Shown: positions 5,638 to 22,689 of the stretch, piece by piece
Position numbering within the stretch: the stretch's first letter is position 1
How the letters are laid out: every line of letters begins with the position of its first letter
From: a virus
Virus record (IMG/VR): IMGVR_UViG_3300045999_012878
Span: 1-23,258 of that record
Length of the DNA stretch: 23,258 bases
Reading direction: 5' to 3' (one strand)
Made by a program: the position numbers and the translations under genes
The notes under the pieces: model-generated
Seen by the model: only the letters and a program-made list of their open reading frames with translations
Databases searched by the model: none
What the model was told of the DNA's origin: nothing

Positions 5638-7172
5638 TATTTTAGGTTTTTATGTAAATTGTATTTTCCGAAATTAAATAAAAAATTATTAAATGGGTAT
5701 TCATGGAGTGGGGCCATATTAATCCAAATTAATGAAGTTAATATATGAACTTTTTTTAAGTCATACAAATTTTCTACAATAAAAGAGTGTAATAATTCTT
5801 TACATTCATTTAAAGTACTATTAATTAATATATAACAATTATTTGAAGAAGGATTAAATAAATTTTTATTTACTATATCATGATTTACAGTTAAATTATG
5901 ATTTAATTTAGCCAAATCATAATACACATCTCCAATTTCTAAATCACCAGCAAAATCTTGTCTCCAATCAATTAAACAAAACCCATCAATGGTTTCAATA
6001 ACATTATCTAAAATAAAATCACCATGAAATTGACTAGGTAAACCCTCACATAACCAATCTATATCAATAGAATCAATTAGATCATAAATACCTTGAACAC
6101 ATTGTCCATTAATTTGATTACTTTCTTTATTATTTTTTAAATATTGAGCTACTCGTTGTTTAGTTTTTGTAATATAAAAATTATAACATTTTTTCTTAAA
6201 ATATTCATCTGATTTTTCTACCCATAAATTAGTTTGAGTCCAGTTTAAAAATTTATTAAATGATTTAGAATTAACAGACTTAGAAAAAAGTTTACCTTCA
6301 GCTTTCTGATATTTATAGAAATTTTCAGTTGAATCTAATATTTTAGGTACTAAATTTTCTAAATTAAATGCTCTAGTAACTCTATTTTTATTTATTATTG
6401 AGTTTGAAAAAAATTTAATTACAAAATCATCAAAGAAAAATATAGACTCATCTACTTTATCTAGTACTTCAATATTAGAATGAAATATTTTTCTAGTTTT
6501 ATTTAACTCTGTTGTATTTCCAATATCAAACCAATCTTCTCCACTAATTTCTTTTTTAAAGAAATTAACTTCAGATAACATATTATTAATAGCATGTACA
6601 TCTGATGTATCTTCATGTCCATTATTAATTAGTTTTTCTAAATTATAAAAAAATAATTCAAAATCTTTAATACCAGCTATACCAACATATGAGTAATCAA
6701 AATTTAATTCTCCTTTTTCATTTATATTAATTAATTTATTACCATCAACATGCAAAGTTCGGTATTGAGCTGGATCATTTTTATGAGATCCTATAATATA
6801 ATTTATATTGGGAAATTCAGGAGAATAGTTTGTTATTATAGTGTCTGAAGCATGGAATATAAAAGGAGAATTTATATTAGATTTGCATTGTAACAAGGAA
6901 TAACCTAAACTACTACCTGGTCCTTTATAATTATCTATTTCTATAAAAGTAAAATTATAATCAGGATATGCTAATTTAAGGAATTGTTTAACATAAGAAC
7001 CAAAATGACCAAGTGTAATTATAAATTCAATATCCTTAGGGTATGATTCTATAATATAAGAAATAGCAGGTTTATCTGCTATTCTTATTAGGGATTTATT
7101 AGTATAATTAGTTAATTCTCCTAATCTACTTCCTAGTCCACTTGTTGTTATTAATACTTTATAATCTACCAT
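5637..7172 (-). CDS. Bifunctional sugar/choline-type nucleotidyltransferase - APH-like kinase fusion
   Basis: A 511-residue two-domain enzyme. Residues 1 to about 230 are a nucleotidyltransferase: the glycine-rich signature TTSGLGSRLGELT (9-21), K26 in place of the 'K.l' Lys, FHASDTI (106-112) with the metal-binding Asp, and GEDWFDIGNTTEL (211-223) as the closing 'W.DiGtp..L' motif. Residues about 245-511 are an aminoglycoside phosphotransferase/choline kinase-like domain: QFHGDFILDN (381-390) is the catalytic Brenner loop, LIDWRQDF (400-407) gives the metal-binding Asp, followed by GDVYYDLAKL (414-423). One protein can therefore phosphorylate a small molecule and activate it with NTP, as LicA and LicC do separately for choline. 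It overlaps the cupin gene by 14 bases and the GatZ-like gene by one. The substrate cannot be named: sugar, polyol or amino alcohol. Confidence 0.75.
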   Translation of the reverse strand: MVDYKVLITTSGLGSRLGELTNYTNKSLIRIADKPAISYIIESYPKDIEFIITLGHFGSYVKQFLKLAYPDYNFTFIEIDNYKGPGSSLGYSLLQCKSNINSPFIFHASDTIITNYSPEFPNINYIIGSHKNDPAQYRTLHVDGNKLININEKGELNFDYSYVGIAGIKDFELFFYNLEKLINNGHEDTSDVHAINNMLSEVNFFKKEISGEDWFDIGNTTELNKTRKIFHSNIEVLDKVDESIFFFDDFVIKFFSNSIINKNRVTRAFNLENLVPKILDSTENFYKYQKAEGKLFSKSVNSKSFNKFLNWTQTNLWVEKSDEYFKKKCYNFYITKTKQRVAQYLKNNKESNQINGQCVQGIYDLIDSIDIDWLCEGLPSQFHGDFILDNVIETIDGFCLIDWRQDFAGDLEIGDVYYDLAKLNHNLTVNHDIVNKNLFNPSSNNCYILINSTLNECKELLHSFIVENLYDLKKVHILTSLIWINMAPLHEYPFNNFLFNFGKYNLHKNLK

Positions 7173-7503
7173 AATTATCTTCTAATCTTACAATATCATC
7201 TTCTCCAAAATAAGATCCTAATTGAACTTCAATAAAAACTAAATCTTCCTCTCCTGTGTTTTTAATTTGATGTTTAGCTGTCACAGGTATATGAAAGATA
7301 GTTCCGGGTCGGGCAGGAAAGATACTATCATCTAATTTTAAATATCCTGTACCTTTTACAACAACCCAAACTTCTTCTCGTTTAAAATGATATTGGTAAC
7401 TAGGAGCTTGTCCTGGTTTTATTACAATTTGTTTTACTTTACATAACTCACTATCTAGTAAGTTTTCAAACTGCCCCCAAGGTCTTTCTTCTTTATAGTT
7501 CAT
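7159..7503 (-). CDS. Mannose-6-phosphate isomerase type II-like cupin
   Basis: A 114-residue single-domain cupin closely matching the C-terminal isomerase domain of bifunctional mannose-1-phosphate guanylyltransferase/mannose-6-phosphate isomerases. It starts with RPWGQFENL, then KVKQIVIKPGQAPSYQYH with presumed metal ligands Q37, H39 and E44 (REEVWVVVKG). The fourth ligand is H78 (VTAKHQIKN), and it closes with IEVQLGSYFGEDDIVRLED. Such enzymes interconvert fructose-6-phosphate and mannose-6-phosphate, the entry to GDP-mannose. It starts 11 bases inside the end of the epimerase gene, which is the enzyme that would use GDP-mannose. No guanylyltransferase of the usual type is in view, so host GDP-mannose supply or the neighbouring nucleotidyltransferase would have to fill that step. 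Confidence 0.8.
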   Translation of the reverse strand: MNYKEERPWGQFENLLDSELCKVKQIVIKPGQAPSYQYHFKREEVWVVVKGTGYLKLDDSIFPARPGTIFHIPVTAKHQIKNTGEEDLVFIEVQLGSYFGEDDIVRLEDNYGRL

Positions 7504-15278: not shown

Positions 15279-16190
15279 TTATTTAGTTGTTAATAATTTT
15301 GATACGCAGGCACAAAAGGTAATTTCTTTATCAGGTGCCATAATTGATTTGTGTTGGTAATCTGCTATTATAAGAGTAGCAATTGCTGAATCGGTGTATT
15401 CATCAGCTCTCTCAAATAGTATTCTATATAACTCATTGTAATCTCTAATATTAGAATCCATTACTAACTGTCTTATAGTAGTAAAATTCTTAGTATTTTT
15501 AGTTTTTAGTAGTTCTATTACTTGATCAGATGTTTGTTTAAAATTAGAGAGTGATCTACTTTGTTGTAATTCTCCATTTTTAATGGATGATTGAAGTAAA
15601 TTCAAACATTTTCTAATATCAGGATATGTTTGTTTAATAATTCTTACTACATCAGCTTTAGTATAAGTAATACCTTCTAAATCTAAAATTTCAACACATT
15701 TAAATGCTACATCTTGCATTGATGGAGGAGTTAATTCAAACATAACAGTTCTAGATTGAATTGGATCAATTATTCTTTCTATAAAATTGCAAGTAAATAT
15801 AAAACGAGCATTTAAACTGTAAGTTTCAATAACATTACGTAAAGCAGCTTGAGCATTAATAGTTAAAAAATCAGCTTCATCCATTATAACCACTTTTTGT
15901 GGTTTAAAACTAGCGGCTGAAACAAACGATTTTACCTTATCTCTAATAGTATCAATACCGTTTTCATCAGAACAATTAATGTAAAGATAATCACAGTTAA
16001 TGTTGTTTACTATTAATTTGGCAGCAGTTGTTTTACCTGTACCTGCAGGTCCTGTAAGTAATAAGTGAGGGATATCATTAGAATCAATCCATTGTTGTAA
16101 TGAAGATTTAAAATCATCATTTCCAATATATCCTTCTAAGGTATCAGGTCTATACTTTTCGGTAAATAAGGTGTGTTTTTTATTGAACAT
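15279..16190 (-). CDS. 44: Clamp loader large subunit (AAA+ ATPase), gp44-like
   Basis: A 303-residue AAA+ clamp loader ATPase. TEKYRPDTLEGYIGND (10-25) is the RFC-box lead-in. GPAGTGKTT (47-55) is Walker A, VVIMDEADFL (100-109) is Walker B with the DEAD-type box, and FIFTCNF (130-136) is sensor 1. IQSRTVMFEL (144-153) stands where clamp loaders have the S-R-C arginine finger; Thr replaces Cys and the Arg is kept. The C-terminal third is the helical collar. With gp62 it would open and close the sliding clamp at primer ends, using ATP. The gene begins 43 bases after groEL, separated by a strong hairpin, so its expression relative to the chaperonin genes may be adjusted there. Confidence 0.9.
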   Translation of the reverse strand: MFNKKHTLFTEKYRPDTLEGYIGNDDFKSSLQQWIDSNDIPHLLLTGPAGTGKTTAAKLIVNNINCDYLYINCSDENGIDTIRDKVKSFVSAASFKPQKVVIMDEADFLTINAQAALRNVIETYSLNARFIFTCNFIERIIDPIQSRTVMFELTPPSMQDVAFKCVEILDLEGITYTKADVVRIIKQTYPDIRKCLNLLQSSIKNGELQQSRSLSNFKQTSDQVIELLKTKNTKNFTTIRQLVMDSNIRDYNELYRILFERADEYTDSAIATLIIADYQHKSIMAPDKEITFCACVSKLLTTK

Positions 16191-16206
16191 AACTTTTATA
16201 ATATAT

Positions 16207-16226
16207 GGAGCCTCTTTCGAGGCTCC
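16207..16226 (-). terminator. GC-rich hairpin with GAAA tetraloop after groEL
   Basis: A perfect 8-bp inverted repeat GGAGCCTC/GAGGCTCC with a four-base loop that reads GAAA on the transcribed strand, a GNRA tetraloop. It begins 7 bases after the groEL stop codon and is by far the most G+C-rich short element in the neighbourhood. On the transcribed strand it is followed by ATATATTATAAAAG, not a clean U-run, so simple intrinsic termination would be weak. RNA 3'-end protection, partial termination or processing between groEL and the clamp loader gene is equally plausible. Confidence 0.65.
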
Positions 16227-16233
16227 AAATTTA

Positions 16234-17874
16234 TTACATCATCCCTTGCATAGGATTGACTTCTTCTTTTTTGTCTTCTTTTTTCTCGTAAATTACAGAT
16301 TCGGTTGTTAAAATTGTACCCGCAACTGAAGCTGCATTTTCTAGTGCTACGCGGGTTACTTTTTTAGGATCGATAATACCTGCAGATTTGAAATTAATTG
16401 TTGATAAGTCTTTATAGTTAAGACCTTCCCAATTGCTTCCTTTTTCTGAGTCAGTTAGTTTGGAACCTAAGTATTGAACTTCTGTTAAATCATGCCCGGC
16501 ATTAGTTAAAATTCGTTGGAATGGAGCAGCTGCTGCTCTATAAACGATTTTCTTACCGTTTACAAAATCATTTGAACCTTCAAAAGTAATACCTTTACGA
16601 GCATATAATAAAGCAGTTCCACCACCAATTACAATACCTTCTTCTAAAGCGGCTTTTGTAGCGAATAAAGCATCTTCTACTCTATCTTTTTTCTCTTTGA
16701 TTTCAAGTTCACTATTACCACCTACGTTAATAATAGCTACCCCACCAATCATTTTACCTAAACGCTCTTGTAATTTTTCTTTCTCAAATGGTGAACCAGC
16801 GTCATCAATTTGTTTTTTAATTTCTTGAGCTCTAGTTTCAATTGCTTCTTCTGATCCTTTACCATCTACAATAGTAGTTTTTTCTTTACCAATTGTAGCA
16901 GTACGAGAAGTACCTAAACATTGTTTTAATGTACTAACATCAATTTTATCAAGTTTATGACCTTTATCTTTAGAAAGAACTTGACCTCCTGTAATAATAG
17001 CTAAATCTTCTAAAGCCATTGTTCTACGATCTCCAAATTCAGGAGCTTTAACTGCTACTACATTTACAATACCTCTCATTTTATTAACAATAGATACAGC
17101 TAATGCTTCTCCGTCAACATCTTCTGCTACTACTAATAATGCTCGTTTTTCAGTGTTAGCTAATGTTAAAGCTGGTACTAATTCATTTACTGTTGTTATT
17201 CTACCATTGTAAATTAAAATGTAAGGGTTTTCTAATACAGCAGTCATTGTATTATTATCAGTTACAAAATAAGGTGATTTGTAACCTCTATCAAATTGCA
17301 TTCCTTCAACAATTTCAAGTGAAGTTTCACCTGATTTAGATTCTTCAATTGCAACAATTCCATCTCTACCTACTTTTTCTAAAGCAGTAGCAATTAAGTT
17401 ACCAATTTCTTCATCATTATTACCTGAAATGGTAGCAACTTCTTTAATTTGTTGGTTATCAGAAATATCTTCTGTTAGGTTGTTAAGAGCTGATTTAAGT
17501 TCTTCTACAGCTGCATCAATTCCTTTTTTAATTTCGATTGGATTTTGACCTGCACTAACATGTTTTAATCCTTCTTCTAGAATGGCATAAGACAATAAAG
17601 TAGAAGTAGTAGTACCATCACCTACTTCATTTGCAGATTTAACTGATACTTTTTTAACTAATTCAGCACCAATTGATTCAATTGGATCTTCTAATTCTTT
17701 AAATTCTTTAGCTACAGATACACCGTCTTTGGTTACTGTTAATTGACCATAATCTCCTTTGATTAATACTGTTCTACCTGCTGGTCCTAAGGTAGAGGAT
17801 ACACTATCATTAAGTTTTTTAACTCCTGATAATAGTTTTGTTTTTAATTCTGTTCCGAATGCTGTTTCTGTCAT
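16234..17874 (-). CDS. groEL: Chaperonin GroEL (60 kDa, Cpn60)
   Basis: A full-length 546-residue group I chaperonin. ATP-site elements are present: STLGPAGR (27-34), TKDG with D50, VGDGTTTSTLL with D86, and EDALFATKAA with D401, matching E. coli D52, D87 and D398. Apical substrate-binding aromatics are kept (Y198, Y202, F203). A late GGGTALL block is also present. The normally near-invariant APGFGDRR reads APEFGDRR here (E279 for Gly). The C-terminal tail is short (NPMQGMM) rather than a long GGM repeat. It starts 2 bases after groES. Phage GroEL is uncommon; T4 brings only a co-chaperonin (gp31) for capsid folding. It would work with the adjacent GroES, probably on phage structural or replication proteins, and could form mixed or separate rings from the host chaperonin. 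Confidence 0.96.
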   Translation of the reverse strand: MTETAFGTELKTKLLSGVKKLNDSVSSTLGPAGRTVLIKGDYGQLTVTKDGVSVAKEFKELEDPIESIGAELVKKVSVKSANEVGDGTTTSTLLSYAILEEGLKHVSAGQNPIEIKKGIDAAVEELKSALNNLTEDISDNQQIKEVATISGNNDEEIGNLIATALEKVGRDGIVAIEESKSGETSLEIVEGMQFDRGYKSPYFVTDNNTMTAVLENPYILIYNGRITTVNELVPALTLANTEKRALLVVAEDVDGEALAVSIVNKMRGIVNVVAVKAPEFGDRRTMALEDLAIITGGQVLSKDKGHKLDKIDVSTLKQCLGTSRTATIGKEKTTIVDGKGSEEAIETRAQEIKKQIDDAGSPFEKEKLQERLGKMIGGVAIINVGGNSELEIKEKKDRVEDALFATKAALEEGIVIGGGTALLYARKGITFEGSNDFVNGKKIVYRAAAAPFQRILTNAGHDLTEVQYLGSKLTDSEKGSNWEGLNYKDLSTINFKSAGIIDPKKVTRVALENAASVAGTILTTESVIYEKKEDKKEEVNPMQGMM

Positions 17875-17876
17875 AA

Positions 17877-18170
17877 TTATTCTTCTATAACTGATAAAAT
17901 ATCATTTTGGTTAGCGATTAAATATTCTTCTCCTTCAAGTTTAACTTTGTGAGTTCCCATTGGTGGTAGTACAACTTTCATTCCTGCTCTTAGATCTGTA
18001 GGAGCATATTCTCCTTTGTTGTAGTTATAAACTTGGGATACAGCCAATATTTCTCCCATAATTGGTCTTTCATTCCCCATATCAGGGATAATGATGTTAC
18101 CCACCATCATTTCTGATTCTTCCATGGGTTTTAGAATAACATTACCGTTTCTCGGTTTTAATTTACTCAT
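17877..18170 (-). CDS. groES: Co-chaperonin GroES (Cpn10)
   Basis: A 97-residue Cpn10. KPRNGNVILKPME (5-17) is the first conserved strand. The mobile loop around 18-30 carries the hydrophobic tripeptide III (26-28), where E. coli GroES has IVL, for docking to the GroEL apical domain. MGEILAVS and AGMKVVLPPMGTHKVKLEGE (62-81) form the barrel, and the end NQNDILSVIEE matches the family ('...dIlavie'). It is unlike T4 gp31 in being of ordinary GroES length and pattern. The start overlaps the 100-residue ORF by 8 bases and the groEL start follows its stop by 2 bases, the usual ES-EL order. Confidence 0.95.
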   Translation of the reverse strand: MSKLKPRNGNVILKPMEESEMMVGNIIIPDMGNERPIMGEILAVSQVYNYNKGEYAPTDLRAGMKVVLPPMGTHKVKLEGEEYLIANQNDILSVIEE

Positions 18171-18465
18171 GATTAATTAAAGTTTTTAGATTGTTTAAAG
18201 TTGTTTCTAATTCAGTGATATACTCTTTAATAGTATAATTAGATTTTTTTTCTGTAACCTGTTCTTTAGCTATACGTTTTAAAGCACTAGATAAATGGGT
18301 ATAATACCCCATTGGCTTTTCTTTTTTAGTTTTAGGTTCAGTAAAAACTAAATTATAACTATCTTCATCAATGATAATTTTGTAATTTCCCATAGCAGGA
18401 TCTTCAATCATTGATCTTTTCTTAACTGTGCCTTTTTGTCGGCCTTTAAAATTGTAATTTGCCAT
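18163..18465 (-). CDS. Small phage protein of unknown function, first gene of the chaperonin operon
   Basis: A 100-residue protein with a basic N-terminus (MANYNFKGRQKGTVKKRS). A small strand-turn-strand core (NYKIIIDEDSYNLVF) is followed by YYTHLSSALKRIAKEQV and a helical C-terminus (YTIKEYITELETTLNNLKTL). This 'short beta hairpin, YY..L..AL..I, helix' pattern resembles small phage proteins often annotated as DUF5405-like; I treat this as a loose resemblance. It overlaps groES by 8 bases and follows an 81-base gap with hairpins, so any promoter for the chaperonin genes probably lies just upstream of it. Confidence 0.6.
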   Translation of the reverse strand: MANYNFKGRQKGTVKKRSMIEDPAMGNYKIIIDEDSYNLVFTEPKTKKEKPMGYYTHLSSALKRIAKEQVTEKKSNYTIKEYITELETTLNNLKTLINHE

Positions 18466-18480
18466 AACTTTTCTTATTTG

Positions 18481-18499
18481 TTTCGTATAAAATACGAAA
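18481..18499. repeat. Perfect 19-base palindrome upstream of the groES operon
   Basis: TTTCGTAT, three bases, then ATACGAAA: an 8-bp perfect inverted repeat centred 25 bases before the start of the 100-residue ORF. It could be an operator for a dimeric repressor or a leader-RNA hairpin. On the plus strand it is followed by GATTTTTTGGG, which would look like a terminator, but no rightward gene ends here. Confidence 0.6.
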
Positions 18500-18518
18500 G
18501 ATTTTTTGGGTATCCAAA
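18487..18518 (-). promoter_or_regulatory. Possible Bacteroidota-type promoter for the groES-groEL operon
   Basis: Reading leftward, TTTG (18518-18515), 20 bases, then TATTTTAT (18494-18487) loosely resembles the Bacteroidota -33/-7 pattern (TTTG, about 19, TAnnTTTG). Two of the last positions of the -7 box do not fit. It falls in one of only two gaps over 80 bases in the window and overlaps the 19-base palindrome, which would make sense for a regulated promoter. Chance occurrence in A/T-rich DNA is a real alternative. Confidence 0.22.
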
Positions 18519-18546
18519 CAAAACTTAACCTAAGGGCATAAGGTTA
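18514..18546 (-). terminator. Terminator-like hairpin after hsp20
   Basis: Immediately after the hsp20 TAA the transcribed strand reads TAACCT, nine bases (TATGCCCTT), AGGTTA, then AGTTTTGTTTGG. A 6-bp stem followed by a T-rich run fits a weak rho-independent terminator in an A/T-rich genome. The stem contains part of an 11-base element that recurs inverted upstream of hsp20. Confidence 0.45.
18528..18538. repeat. Left copy of 11-base inverted repeat flanking hsp20
   Basis: ACCTAAGGGCA on the plus strand, in the gap just downstream of hsp20. The exact reverse complement TGCCCTTAGGT occurs at 19008-19018 in the gap upstream of hsp20. The two copies bracket the gene. Confidence 0.6.
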
Positions 18547-18954
18547 TTATTTTATTTTTATTGATTTTGGTTTTGATTTTTCAGCTACAGGTATAGAAAT
18601 CTCTAGCAAACCATTTTCTAGTTTTGCTACTGCTAAAGATAAGTCATATTTAGCTGAAATTTTATAACCTAAATTAAAGGATTTTTTAGATAATCCTCTA
18701 TGAATTGTACCAGGGTGCAATTCTTTTTCTTCTGAAGGTTTGGTATAACTAATTTTTAAGATATCATCTTCAATATCTACTTTTACATCATCTTTAGAAA
18801 GACCGGTGCACGCTACTTCAAAATGAAGTCCGTCATCGTTATAAAAGATATTTAAAGGGTGAGGTTGTTTTGTGGTTGCTGCTGAACCGAATCCACTTGT
18901 AGGGTAAAAGAAATTGTGGAATAGAATGTCAAATTCATTAAAGTTTGTACTCAT
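18547..18954 (-). CDS. hsp20: Small heat-shock protein (Hsp20/alpha-crystallin family)
   Basis: A 135-residue holdase-type chaperone. A short variable N-terminus (1-33) with the phenylalanine-rich FDILFHNFFYP is followed by an alpha-crystallin beta sandwich: ACTGLSKDDVKVDIEDDILKI is cut here to its core GLSKDDVKVDIEDD (51-64), and the signature A-x3-N-G-L-L occurs at 110-117 (AKLENGLL). The C-terminal SIKIK contains the I-x-I motif (I132, I134) used for oligomer assembly. Hsp20 genes are known in T4-like cyanophages, where they are thought to protect proteins during virion assembly. It stands alone between two gaps of about 80 bases with hairpins and an inverted repeat, so it may be its own transcription unit. 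Confidence 0.9.
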   Translation of the reverse strand: MSTNFNEFDILFHNFFYPTSGFGSAATTKQPHPLNIFYNDDGLHFEVACTGLSKDDVKVDIEDDILKISYTKPSEEKELHPGTIHRGLSKKSFNLGYKISAKYDLSLAVAKLENGLLEISIPVAEKSKPKSIKIK

Positions 18955-19036: not shown

Positions 19037-19759
19037 TTACTCATGTAAAGCTACAAGAAAATATTCAGCTTTTACACCTGCTTCTTCTAAGTTAACTTTC
19101 AATAAACCATCTTTATAAAGATATGCTTTACCAACTGCATCTTTGTTTACAGATATTATTTCTCTAAAATTAGAAGCACTAAATGCTACTGGTTTTACTT
19201 TATTGATGATTTTACCAGGTTCAGAAAAATTAACTTTATTTGAATAAGATGATTTTTCACCTATTGTAAAATTAACAACATCTTCATTTTGGAAATCTTT
19301 AGTTATTCCTATTTCAAAACGAGGTGGTTTATCTAATGCATTGTGTGCTTTAATATACTTTTGAGTAAAATCAAAATTAATATCAAATTCTAGATCATGT
19401 GGTGGTAAATTTGGAGCTACACCTGGATCCTGAATTAAACCTAGATCACTTAAATTATAAGATAAATCAAATTGATTATCACTAATATGTAATTTTAAAA
19501 AGTGGTTGTTTTGTTTTTCTAGTTTTAATTCAATAAAATCATTTGTAATATTAAGTAATTTAAGCAATTGACCAGTATTAAAGATACCAATCTCGCAATC
19601 TTCTAAGGTTATAGGCGCTATAACTTCTCCAATACAGTCTTTATTGTCAACTGCAAATTTAATGTGAGCTTCGTTGTTTTTTACCTTAAATTTAACTTGA
19701 GATGTTAAACCATTTAAATAAAAACTTTCAATAATTTGTGTTAATATTATTTTATCCAT
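19037..19759 (-). CDS. 45: DNA polymerase sliding clamp, gp45-like
   Basis: A 240-residue protein of the size of T4 gp45 (228 residues), with the two-domain beta-rich layout of trimeric phage clamps. Domain 1 (about 1-110) contains FNTGQLLKLLNI (60-71). The central interdomain stretch contains LGLIQDPGVAPNLPPHDLEF. Domain 2 has FSASNFREIISVNK. The ring encircles DNA and tethers the polymerase; in T4 it also activates late transcription. The start codon overlaps the stop of the polymerase C-terminal gene by one base (TAATG). Identification rests on motif order and its position between polymerase and clamp loader genes. Sequence similarity is low, as is usual in this family. Confidence 0.82.
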   Translation of the reverse strand: MDKIILTQIIESFYLNGLTSQVKFKVKNNEAHIKFAVDNKDCIGEVIAPITLEDCEIGIFNTGQLLKLLNITNDFIELKLEKQNNHFLKLHISDNQFDLSYNLSDLGLIQDPGVAPNLPPHDLEFDINFDFTQKYIKAHNALDKPPRFEIGITKDFQNEDVVNFTIGEKSSYSNKVNFSEPGKIINKVKPVAFSASNFREIISVNKDAVGKAYLYKDGLLKVNLEEAGVKAEYFLVALHE

Positions 19760-20694
19760 TAGTTGAATGTAAAAAATTTATGTATTAGTGGATTTGCAGG
19801 TGGTAATTGCCATTCTAAATCATCATAAAAACCTTGTAATTTGTTTTGTAATATAGTTTCAAAACTTTTACCTCTATCAATATATTCATTAATAAAATTT
19901 CTAATTTTATTAGCCATATCAAATTCTAGAAAAGCAATTGCTTCTATATTATACGGATTATTTTTTAAATAAACCCATTTTATTTTATCACCTTGTACAA
20001 TTTGACTATGTTTAGAATCTAATTGCCAAAATCTTAATAAATCATTATGTTTAATAGCTGCTTTAACTGATGCACCTGCTCCTTGTTTTATTTCAGATAA
20101 TATTTTACCTGGTCTAGGATGTGAAGCAATATATTCATTTAGTGTTTTAACTGCTGTTGGATTACCAATTAATGTAAAATCAACATCAGATGAAGTAGCT
20201 TCTTGTCTAAATTCATGAATTTTTTTATCTACGATACTTTGTGGAGTACCTTTAATAATTAGTTCAAGAATTTCTTGATAAAATTTACCAAAATATTTTG
20301 GAAAATTAGCTTTTTTAAATTCTAATCCTTTAATATCAAGTTCTTCTTTGATAATACCTTCTTTTTTAGTAATCCATTGTGCATAACGTCTTGTAGCTCT
20401 AAAATAAGCAGAACGAATAACACACTCGGTTTTCATTTCTAATCGGTGTGTACTAACATTAAAAGCTTCTTTAGCTAAAATGTTATAATATTCTGTTATA
20501 ATATCTTGATATTTAAGAGCTACTTTTTCTAATAAATCATCTTTTTCTTGATCAGTTTTCTCATCAAAATCAGGATATAAGTGTTTTAATAAAGGTTCAG
20601 CATTAAAATAATTAGAGTCTGTATCCACATAGGCGCAAAAATTAAAATCACCTTCATCACAAATCCACCATGGGGTATCTTCTAAATGTTTCAT
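19759..20694 (-). CDS. 43B: Family B DNA polymerase, C-terminal part (motif C, thumb)
   Basis: A 311-residue protein that completes the polymerase. CAYVDTDSNYF (20-30) is motif C, with the catalytic D24 and D26. RATRRYAQW (99-107) matches the K-K-R-Y palm/thumb motif. LDIKGLEFKKANFPKY (119-134) matches the 'lkimGmE...s..Pk' thumb block of T4/RB69 gp43, and the rest follows gp43 to its end. The tail IHKFFTFN is an aromatic clamp-binding type peptide like the C-terminus of gp43. Added to the N-terminal part (576 residues) the total is 887, close to T4 gp43 (898). The first 18 or so residues have no clear gp43 counterpart and may form the interface. It starts one base after the ORF87 stop and overlaps the clamp gene by one base. 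It cannot act alone because motifs A and B are on the other chain. Confidence 0.93.
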   Translation of the reverse strand: MKHLEDTPWWICDEGDFNFCAYVDTDSNYFNAEPLLKHLYPDFDEKTDQEKDDLLEKVALKYQDIITEYYNILAKEAFNVSTHRLEMKTECVIRSAYFRATRRYAQWITKKEGIIKEELDIKGLEFKKANFPKYFGKFYQEILELIIKGTPQSIVDKKIHEFRQEATSSDVDFTLIGNPTAVKTLNEYIASHPRPGKILSEIKQGAGASVKAAIKHNDLLRFWQLDSKHSQIVQGDKIKWVYLKNNPYNIEAIAFLEFDMANKIRNFINEYIDRGKSFETILQNKLQGFYDDLEWQLPPANPLIHKFFTFN

Positions 20695-20695
20695 A

Positions 20696-20959
20696 TTAAA
20701 ATGTTCTTTCTCCTGGTACTGGGGGTAAATTAATAGGCCTGTTACCTTTTGAATCTATATCAGATCTTTCTTTAAGAATTATTTCAAATGAATTTTTATT
20801 AATCTTACATCTGCCTCCTTGTTGTAGCATTTTTTTAAAAAATTTTTCTTGTAAAGCATCCCAACTTTTAGATAATTCAATAACTAATTGTTTTTCAACT
20901 TTAGAACCATTTATATAAATAGTAGTTCCATTTTTAATGGATTGTCCTTTTAATGCCAT
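20696..20959 (-). CDS. ORF87 lying between the two DNA polymerase parts
   Basis: An 87-residue, Lys-rich protein that I do not recognise. It contains a short strand pair (GTTIYINGSKVEKQLVI) and an amphipathic helix (SWDALQEKFFKKMLQQGG), then a strand segment (KINKNSFEIILKE) and a Pro-rich tail (INLPPVPGERTF). It has no intein blocks, no GIY-YIG, LAGLIDADG or HNH motif, and no polymerase sequence. Its start overlaps the stop of the N-terminal polymerase gene (TAATG) and the C-terminal gene starts one base after its stop, so all three are probably translated in fixed proportion. It could be a third polymerase subunit, a remnant of the element that split the gene, or a passenger. Confidence 0.7.
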   Translation of the reverse strand: MALKGQSIKNGTTIYINGSKVEKQLVIELSKSWDALQEKFFKKMLQQGGRCKINKNSFEIILKERSDIDSKGNRPINLPPVPGERTF

Positions 20960-22689
20960 TATATTTCTAATTTAATTTCTCCTCTTAATACTTTGTTCAT
21001 ATGTCTGTTAGCACAAAGTGCTGATTCTTGAATAATACGTTGTCCACTTAAAGTAATTGCTTCTGATAATATTACATTTCCATATCTAAATGTAGGTAAT
21101 GCAGTAGCACCATAAAGTGAATTAAGTAAGATTTTCATTGTATATTGTAATAAATGGTATTTTTCACCTCCTACTGTATCACCTGCTTTATAAGCTGCTT
21201 TCATTTTGTTTTTATATAAAACTCTTTCATCAAACCATTTATTCAAAATAGTTGATAATACGGACTCTTTATCTGTACGAAATATAACACCATTTGCTGA
21301 GATAGCCAAATTATATTGCTGAAGTAGTTTAACTATTTTAGAAGAAGTCCAATCAATTTTATTGAATTTATCTTTATTAGCAAACCATTCAGTAGTACGA
21401 GGTTTATCTTCAGTATCATTAATTAAATCATTTAAACCTAAACGATTATTTCTATCATTGAAATCAATAATTCTACCTACTAATGTTTCTTTACCAATAT
21501 TAAGAGACATAATAATTGAAGGATATAGCGAAGTTAAATCTTCATCAAACATGTAACGGTATAAACCTGCTTTAGGACAAAATAAATAACCTCCAGCATA
21601 ATTAGCTTTTTTAATAGGATTTCTATCTCTAGAAGGTGGTACTATACCTTCAGATAATAAAAACGCTGAAATTGCACCATCATGAATTTTAGATGATTGG
21701 TAAACATCATCATAATGGATTTTACCTTTATGTGATAAATTTTTAGTTAAACTAATATAATTGAATTTGTTGTCTAATGCTTTTAAGATTTCAACATCTC
21801 TAAAGTTATATTCAATAAATTTTTCTTTATCAGTTTCAAATAACCTATCTAAGCTACCTTCATATTCAATTTTAGATAATTTACAGTATCTTTCTCCTAA
21901 TGCATCTAATTTATAAGAAGGTTCATCAGCAAATGAATATTTTTTATGTAAACGAAGATAATCTAAAGAGTAAACACCTTCAATCCTTATAGGTTGATCT
22001 TCATCATAAATTATAACTCCATCATCTCTGGTGTATTTTTGTTCTTTAATTTTACCTATTGGAGATAAAGCACTAGCTCTACGTTCGCCTAATTGATTTA
22101 AAATTCTATAATAAAGATAAGGTATATCAAAATAATCACTATTATAACCAATTAAAATATCAGGACTAACTTTAGTTAAATAATTTAACCATTTATTTAA
22201 TAACTCTCTTTCATTAGGTACAGGGATAATATGTTTATTTCCTACAGTAGTTTTTTCAATTTTATTTTCTTTGTCTAAAATTAAAATATACCATTTATCT
22301 TCTTGTTTATGCCACCAAGCAATTGAAGTAACGGGTTTTGGTGCTTTTCTGATATATTCAGGAGTAAGAGCACCACCCATTTCAATCTCAATATCAAAAA
22401 ATATTTCTTGATGTGTAGTTGAAGGTTCATCATTTATACCGTACTTATCAATCAAAAATTTTTGATGTACAGGCATATCATGATAATGGATAAATGGATT
22501 ACTTCCTTCCCAATAAGTAACTCGTTTTAAGGGTTCTCCATTTAGACCAAAATGTGTAGCCTGGTCTTGGCCACACACTTCATAAGCATAGTTTTGGAAT
22601 TCATATTGTTCTACTCCATCATCGGTCCATAAGATAATATTATATCTGTTTTTACCCAATGAAGTAGTTGATATATTTTTATAACTCAT
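20959..22689 (-). CDS. 43A: Family B DNA polymerase, N-terminal part (3'-5' exonuclease, palm motifs A and B)
   Basis: A 576-residue protein corresponding to the first two thirds of T4-type gp43. FFDIEIE (97-103; D99, E101) is Exo I. GYNSDYFDIPYL (181-192; D185) is Exo II. YNFRDVEIL (294-302; D298) is Exo III. DLTSLYPSII (384-393; D384) is palm motif A. The fingers carry R489/K493, and KILLNSLYGA (519-528; K519, N523, Y526) is motif B. The chain stops at GEIKLEI shortly after motif B, just before motif C would come, so it has an exonuclease but an incomplete polymerase active site. It should assemble with the C-terminal product encoded 265 bases further on. The start has AAAGG 8 bases upstream, one of the few Shine-Dalgarno-like sites in the window. 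The previous gene ends 18 bases before it. Confidence 0.95.
   Translation of the reverse strand: MSYKNISTTSLGKNRYNIILWTDDGVEQYEFQNYAYEVCGQDQATHFGLNGEPLKRVTYWEGSNPFIHYHDMPVHQKFLIDKYGINDEPSTTHQEIFFDIEIEMGGALTPEYIRKAPKPVTSIAWWHKQEDKWYILILDKENKIEKTTVGNKHIIPVPNERELLNKWLNYLTKVSPDILIGYNSDYFDIPYLYYRILNQLGERRASALSPIGKIKEQKYTRDDGVIIYDEDQPIRIEGVYSLDYLRLHKKYSFADEPSYKLDALGERYCKLSKIEYEGSLDRLFETDKEKFIEYNFRDVEILKALDNKFNYISLTKNLSHKGKIHYDDVYQSSKIHDGAISAFLLSEGIVPPSRDRNPIKKANYAGGYLFCPKAGLYRYMFDEDLTSLYPSIIMSLNIGKETLVGRIIDFNDRNNRLGLNDLINDTEDKPRTTEWFANKDKFNKIDWTSSKIVKLLQQYNLAISANGVIFRTDKESVLSTILNKWFDERVLYKNKMKAAYKAGDTVGGEKYHLLQYTMKILLNSLYGATALPTFRYGNVILSEAITLSGQRIIQESALCANRHMNKVLRGEIKLEI

Follow-up and report, generated by a model that had tools for sequence, protein, structure and literature searches.

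Locus organization

The stretch of viral DNA analyzed here (hereafter the window) comprises 23,258 nucleotides, positions 1 to 23,258 of IMG/VR virus record IMGVR_UViG_3300045999_012878. On its minus strand, the ORF list and the sequence place the two halves of a T4-type family B DNA polymerase around a small gene, in the order 43A, ORF87, 43B. The 43A gene (20959–22689, minus strand) encodes the exonuclease, motif A (DLTSLYPSII) and motif B (KILLNSLYGA), and 43B (19759–20694, minus strand) continues the same polymerase from motif C (YVDTDS) to the C-terminus. Between them, ORF87 (20696–20959, minus strand) encodes a basic protein of 87 amino acids, conserved over its N-terminal two thirds (QSIR, W and FFKKMLxQGG) and carrying a Pro-rich tail that ends in GERTF. 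One base is common to the 43A stop and the ORF87 start in a TAATG overlap (20961–20957, minus strand), and a single base (20695) separates the ORF87 stop codon, TAA, from the ATG of 43B (20692–20698, minus strand). GGAGAA in the final ORF87 codons could serve as a ribosome-binding site for 43B. The preliminary description of this locus had proposed the same order, with ORF87 translationally coupled to both halves; coordinates and sequence confirm the gene order and the stop/start arrangement, and they support coupling at the level of the overlaps, from which we infer the translational effect itself. Its account of ORF87 as basic with a Pro-rich tail also holds, with a predicted pI of 9.8 for the window protein and a median of 9.5 over 74 distinct relatives.

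The polymerase split

The two halves match PHROG 262 in register, 43A at positions 86–567 and 43B at positions 565–847. Residue 568 of 43A aligns to residue 609 of the RB69 gp43 chain, which places the break between motifs B and C. The first ORF thus holds the exonuclease and motifs A and B, and the following one, in the same direction, holds motif C, as in a split T4-type gene 43. Scans that used 43B as the query, and were therefore independent of ORF87, yielded two sets of loci that we call clade I (the window and its relatives) and clade II. These are names of scan sets: the tree supports the clade II side and one group made up of the window and its L040–L079 relatives, and clade I additionally includes the L072–L087 and L088–L093 groups. 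Loci with an incomplete junction were left out (11 in clade I, 5 in clade II and 2 in the Mel-JY01 scan described below), and identical junctions were removed for non-redundant counts. The polymerase was split at every readable junction, in 70 of 81 clade I loci and 75 of 80 clade II loci, and the split is thus real and not a sequencing error. Where ORF87 is absent and the halves are joined by a 4-nt overlap, 43A and 43B lie in different frames and leave no space for an intron, which rules out the recovery of one chain by simple read-through or splicing.

Two unusual loci were seen in passing. In LR756508 (L096, 1364–9288), a huge-phage polymerase is apparently interrupted immediately ahead of motif C. 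About four ORFs separate its halves, and, as judged by eye, it has intein-like inserts at motif B and inside motif C. In L189 (2972–5884), a 970-aa 43A appears by eye to carry a large intein-like insert in its exonuclease region; this seam also contains ORF87.

ORF87 as a gene

ORF87 is a real gene, more than a chance open frame. From base composition, an open frame of 87 codons would arise at a given position with P of about 0.0014. A single-sequence scan found ORF87 in 13 contigs at 76–87% identity, and in more distant contigs identity falls to about 37%. A 21-member profile was then scanned, from which the best 80 of 340 relatives were taken, as were the best 80 of 300 from a second profile led by a divergent copy (L145); bacterial genome collections contributed two further relatives. 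Among these best-ranked relatives, a polymerase half lies in the ORF87 locus in 106 of 107 distinct contigs. The exception is L145 itself, a 23-kb contig in which no 43B was found and ORF87 lies outside any visible seam. According to the preliminary description, homologues far from gene 43 with an unrelated function would count against its readings of ORF87; a homologue away from gene 43 thus occurs once in 107 contigs, on a contig without a visible polymerase. There, an FkbM-like methyltransferase gene overlaps at its end with ORF87 (6001–6270), which is followed downstream by genes that resemble queC/queE by eye. Median dN/dS over 252 non-independent pairs was 0.195 for ORF87, 0.124 for 43B and 0.133 for 43A; ORF87 is under purifying selection, somewhat looser than that on the polymerase halves. 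In L238 (1814–2075), ORF87 lies in two frames, through a frameshift or a sequencing error.

Searches for relatives of known function returned little. The window ORF87 had no profile match in Pfam or PHROGs at E ≤ 1. With its relatives included, Pfam, PHROGs, NCBIfam and PADLOC gave scattered weak matches, inconsistent among members and none convincing, so the profile search that had been suggested for ORF87 ended without a convincing match in any of these libraries. A PDB profile search gave weak matches only (best E 0.028). Two AlphaFold models reached pLDDT 68 and 72 and pTM 0.46 and 0.49, and Foldseek found nothing significant with them (best E 3.3 in PDB and 0.24 in BFVD). The sole tblastn matches among phage records, to Nodularia lysozymes at E 0.4, were taken as chance. 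A profile comparison between ORF87 and the C-terminal half of the polymerase was negative and so gives no sign that ORF87 is a piece of the polymerase. In the open literature, we recognized no report, from titles or the start of abstracts, of the ORF87 family or of metabolic cargo between polymerase halves.

Distribution of ORF87 and its exchange between phages

Among the 70 readable clade I junctions, ORF87 is present in 40, 43A joins 43B directly in 25, and other cargo alone is found in 5; in clade II it is present in 75 of 75, with the L238 copy frame-broken. Non-redundant seams with ORF87 number 36 of 59 and 62 of 62, respectively. Split loci without ORF87 therefore make up 30 of 145 informative loci (23 of 121 non-redundant), and ORF87 is not present in every split polymerase, contrary to what would be expected of a third subunit. 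Seven split contigs (27–110 kb) without ORF87 in the seam had no copy elsewhere on the contig.

The nearest annotated phage polymerase, that of Microcystis phage Mel-JY01 (PP395634), is about 33–36% identical to the window polymerase and consists of one intact 848-aa chain; its 190-kb genome has no ORF87. A scan with Mel-JY01 covered 82 loci including two references, of which 78 were called intact by script, two lacked the region, and LR756508 was split. The script called the remaining locus, L350, split owing to a stop upstream of motif A; its stretch from motif B to motif C is continuous by eye, and thus we treated it as intact at the seam. None of the Mel-JY01-scan loci contained ORF87. Searches of whole contigs, hand-chosen, mostly among the longer ones and all possibly partial, found it in 0 of 20 long intact-polymerase contigs and in 21 of 21 split-polymerase contigs used as a control. 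Thus, to the question of whether relatives with an intact polymerase lack ORF87, the answer is that they do, in relatives that are distant and contigs that may be partial. Given this distance, absence from intact relatives is weak evidence, and the association of ORF87 with split polymerases could reflect a single ancestry.

We also compared polymerase residues between carriers and non-carriers of ORF87. No residue tracked ORF87 presence in 43A across the whole set, nor in 43B, which was compared within one clade. In that clade of 17 sequences, carriers were separated from non-carriers by 3 of the 139 columns that vary in 43A and by none of the 109 in 43B; in a recount with 12 sequences, a permutation that ignores kinship gave three columns in 1.5% of shuffles. 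The three 43A columns do not generalize outside the clade.

ORF87 moves between phages independently of the polymerase, by recombination, alone or with neighboring cargo. In the pair L111/L114, ORF87 is 99% identical whereas 43B is 66% and the end of 43A 63% identical; the corresponding values for L135/L150 are 98%, 66% and 63%. In both pairs, the DNA match extends into a neighboring DUF6165-like gene. Trees disagree with support as well, with those of ORF87 built on 87 columns: L199, on a contig binned as Flavobacteriaceae, is placed with strong support with L160 by 43B and with the L049/L088 group by ORF87, and the L049 group is close to the window clade in the 43B tree and separate from it in the ORF87 tree. 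Over 2701 non-independent pairs, identity in ORF87 correlated with that in 43B at 0.67, compared with 0.82 for 43A against 43B. Because of this independent movement, it is improbable that ORF87 is an indispensable third component of the polymerase.

These data bear on the proposal that ORF87 is a third component of the polymerase, a bridge or assembly factor that stabilizes the split enzyme, with lineages that lack it having compensated. Its restriction to split polymerases, its constancy in clade II with cargo before it, after it or both, its overlap with the 43A end in most seams (below) and, weakly, the three carrier-specific columns of that single clade agree with this proposal. We nevertheless consider it improbable, given the absence of ORF87 from 23 of the 59 non-redundant seams in clade I, the contigs among these without a copy elsewhere, and the swaps between polymerases 63–66% identical. 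An obligate third subunit in particular, the bridge across the palm suggested in the preliminary description, is unlikely because of the same empty seams and swaps together with the copy outside any visible seam; nor did a residue that tracks ORF87 emerge, over the whole set for 43A or within the one clade compared for 43B.

Contents of the seam

The seam between the polymerase halves houses a varied set of genes: DUF6165, a mannose-6-phosphate-isomerase-type cupin, cytidylyltransferase-like, PALP (cysteine-synthase-like) and epimerase genes, as well as DegT aminotransferase, GNAT, glycosyltransferase/FkbM, 2OG-oxygenase, HNH and GIY-YIG genes. In the 62 non-redundant clade II seams, DUF6165 occurs in 34, the cupin in 16 and the cytidylyltransferase in 13; these counts are approximate because the simple ORF caller missed ORF87 itself in 5 of the 62. 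Cargo in clade II is patchy, whereas ORF87 is constant. Over 75 clade II loci, ORF87 directly adjoins both halves in 11, is followed by cargo in 44 (29 + 9 + 6) and is preceded by cargo in 27 (18 + 9). The 43A–ORF87 junction is an overlap in 64 of 103 cases (31 TAATG and 33 ATGA), and in 18 of 23 seams without ORF87 a 4-nt overlap joins 43A to 43B. In five loci (L065, L078, L083, L085 and L052), a PLP-dependent cysteine-synthase-like gene sits between the halves, mostly with stop/start overlaps. The window itself has a mannose-6-phosphate-isomerase-type cupin at 7159–7503, of the Pfam family of the common seam cargo, within its sugar-gene region.

Such turnover raises the question of whether ORF87 is an ordinary neutral passenger like the other cargo. 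Its exchange independently of the polymerase, its absence from many clade I phages, the L145 copy outside a visible seam beside an FkbM-like methyltransferase gene and the frame-broken copy in L238 are in keeping with such a passenger, which we nonetheless regard as quite unlikely in view of the purifying selection and of its occurrence in 62 of 62 clade II seams, where the next commonest cargo reaches 34 of 62. Constancy amid gene turnover, together with the lack of any occurrence with an intact polymerase, is better explained by a role linked to the split enzyme than by a mere passenger.

Homing endonucleases, introns and inteins

Homing endonucleases are visitors to the seam, separate from ORF87. 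In L002/L025, an HNH-type gene separates an intact ORF87 from a 43A whose tail is altered, and a GIY-YIG gene lies beside a full-length ORF87 in L067/L068. The 43A tail is altered in a similar way in three further loci (L006, L011 and L013), where only a spacer of 49–63 nt adjoins an intact ORF87, and in L013 the spacer retains what appears to be the old 43A tail sequence; these spacers may mark sites from which a homing endonuclease gene was lost. ORF87 has no recurring nuclease (HNH, GIY-YIG, LAGLIDADG) or intein motif or profile, in agreement with the preliminary description, and the lone Tox-HNH-HHH match (E 0.11) came from 1 of 21 members. An Rfam covariance search found no intron, group I included, in the window stretch or in 12 relatives, and neither a splicing-domain profile in ORF87 nor a single open frame across the seam, as an intein would have, was found.

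That the polymerase gene was split by a homing endonuclease, intein or intron of which ORF87 is the reduced remnant has little probability in our view: the seam does attract homing endonucleases and the distant relative LR756508 has, by eye, intein-like segments near the same motifs, but ORF87 is conserved over its full length, and nuclease genes and probable scars adjoin it intact. A decayed invader, as the preliminary description had suggested, is thus unlikely because HNH and GIY-YIG genes adjoin intact ORF87 and because ORF87 is under purifying selection.

Discussion

On balance, we think it probable that this lineage has a two-chain polymerase cut between motifs B and C, that the seam is a permissive gene slot, and that ORF87 is its long-term resident, most likely a dispensable accessory protein. 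In this model, the polymerase would be stably made as two chains, and the 43A/43B junction would act as an operon slot that genes may enter or leave. The stop/start overlaps (TAATG or ATGA) at most junctions would preserve translational coupling in the direction from 43A to 43B. The two chains would then reassemble, by analogy with Aeromonas phage 25, in which the halves of a split gene 43 are reported to co-purify and to be active (PMC2988022). ORF87 would be a small basic resident of the slot, made together with the replicase and having an accessory role; perhaps it binds nucleic acid, a guess from its charge alone. A bolder version, which we hold to be possible though unlikely, is that ORF87 is a dedicated, exchangeable cofactor for assembly or activity of the split replicase that arose with the split, was kept in the seam by co-translation and has since become dispensable in some lineages, the seam having turned a polymerase gene into a slot for metabolic cargo.

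The two-chain polymerase with a permissive seam can be compared with known systems. As in Aeromonas phage 25, two neighboring genes, separated by a further one, encode a T4-type family B polymerase. However, the phage 25 43A (498 aa) stops before motif B and its 43B starts upstream of KILINSLYGA, whereas the window polymerase is cut between motifs B and C, so the two are not cut at the same site. The interposed gene also differs: in phage 25 it is the annotated homing endonuclease gene seg43, and here it is ORF87, plus metabolic cargo in relatives. The OM43 phages MEP401 and MEP402, with 43-kb genomes, are described as having a split polymerase with a small ORF14 between the halves (PMC10580990). 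By that description, they resemble the window in having two polymerase genes around one small ORF without known relatives, although theirs is a family A polymerase. In Jug phages, polymerase genes are reported to be frequently interrupted and split by endonuclease sequences (PMC12363816); the passages of that report on these interruptions mention endonuclease sequences and no metabolic cargo, unlike the seams described here.

Split phage polymerases were thus already known; here, the polymerase is cut elsewhere, and the cut is common to all members of a large group of uncultured phages in which the junction can be read. The seam amounts to a slot for other genes within a replication gene, with sugar-nucleotide, cysteine and polysaccharide genes between the halves of one active site. 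Because its content varies while the halves stay operon-linked, mostly by stop/start overlaps, the lineage offers a natural test of how far a split enzyme tolerates separation. ORF87, found only with split polymerases, poses the question of whether it acts on them.

Two features of the surrounding replication region may also be recorded. A 240-aa ORF at the usual position of the sliding clamp (19037–19759) had no Pfam or PHROG match. Between the polymerase and clamp-loader genes, the window carries Hsp20 and GroEL-type chaperonin genes identified with Pfam (15279–18954), and a 97-aa ORF beside GroEL resembles GroES by eye.
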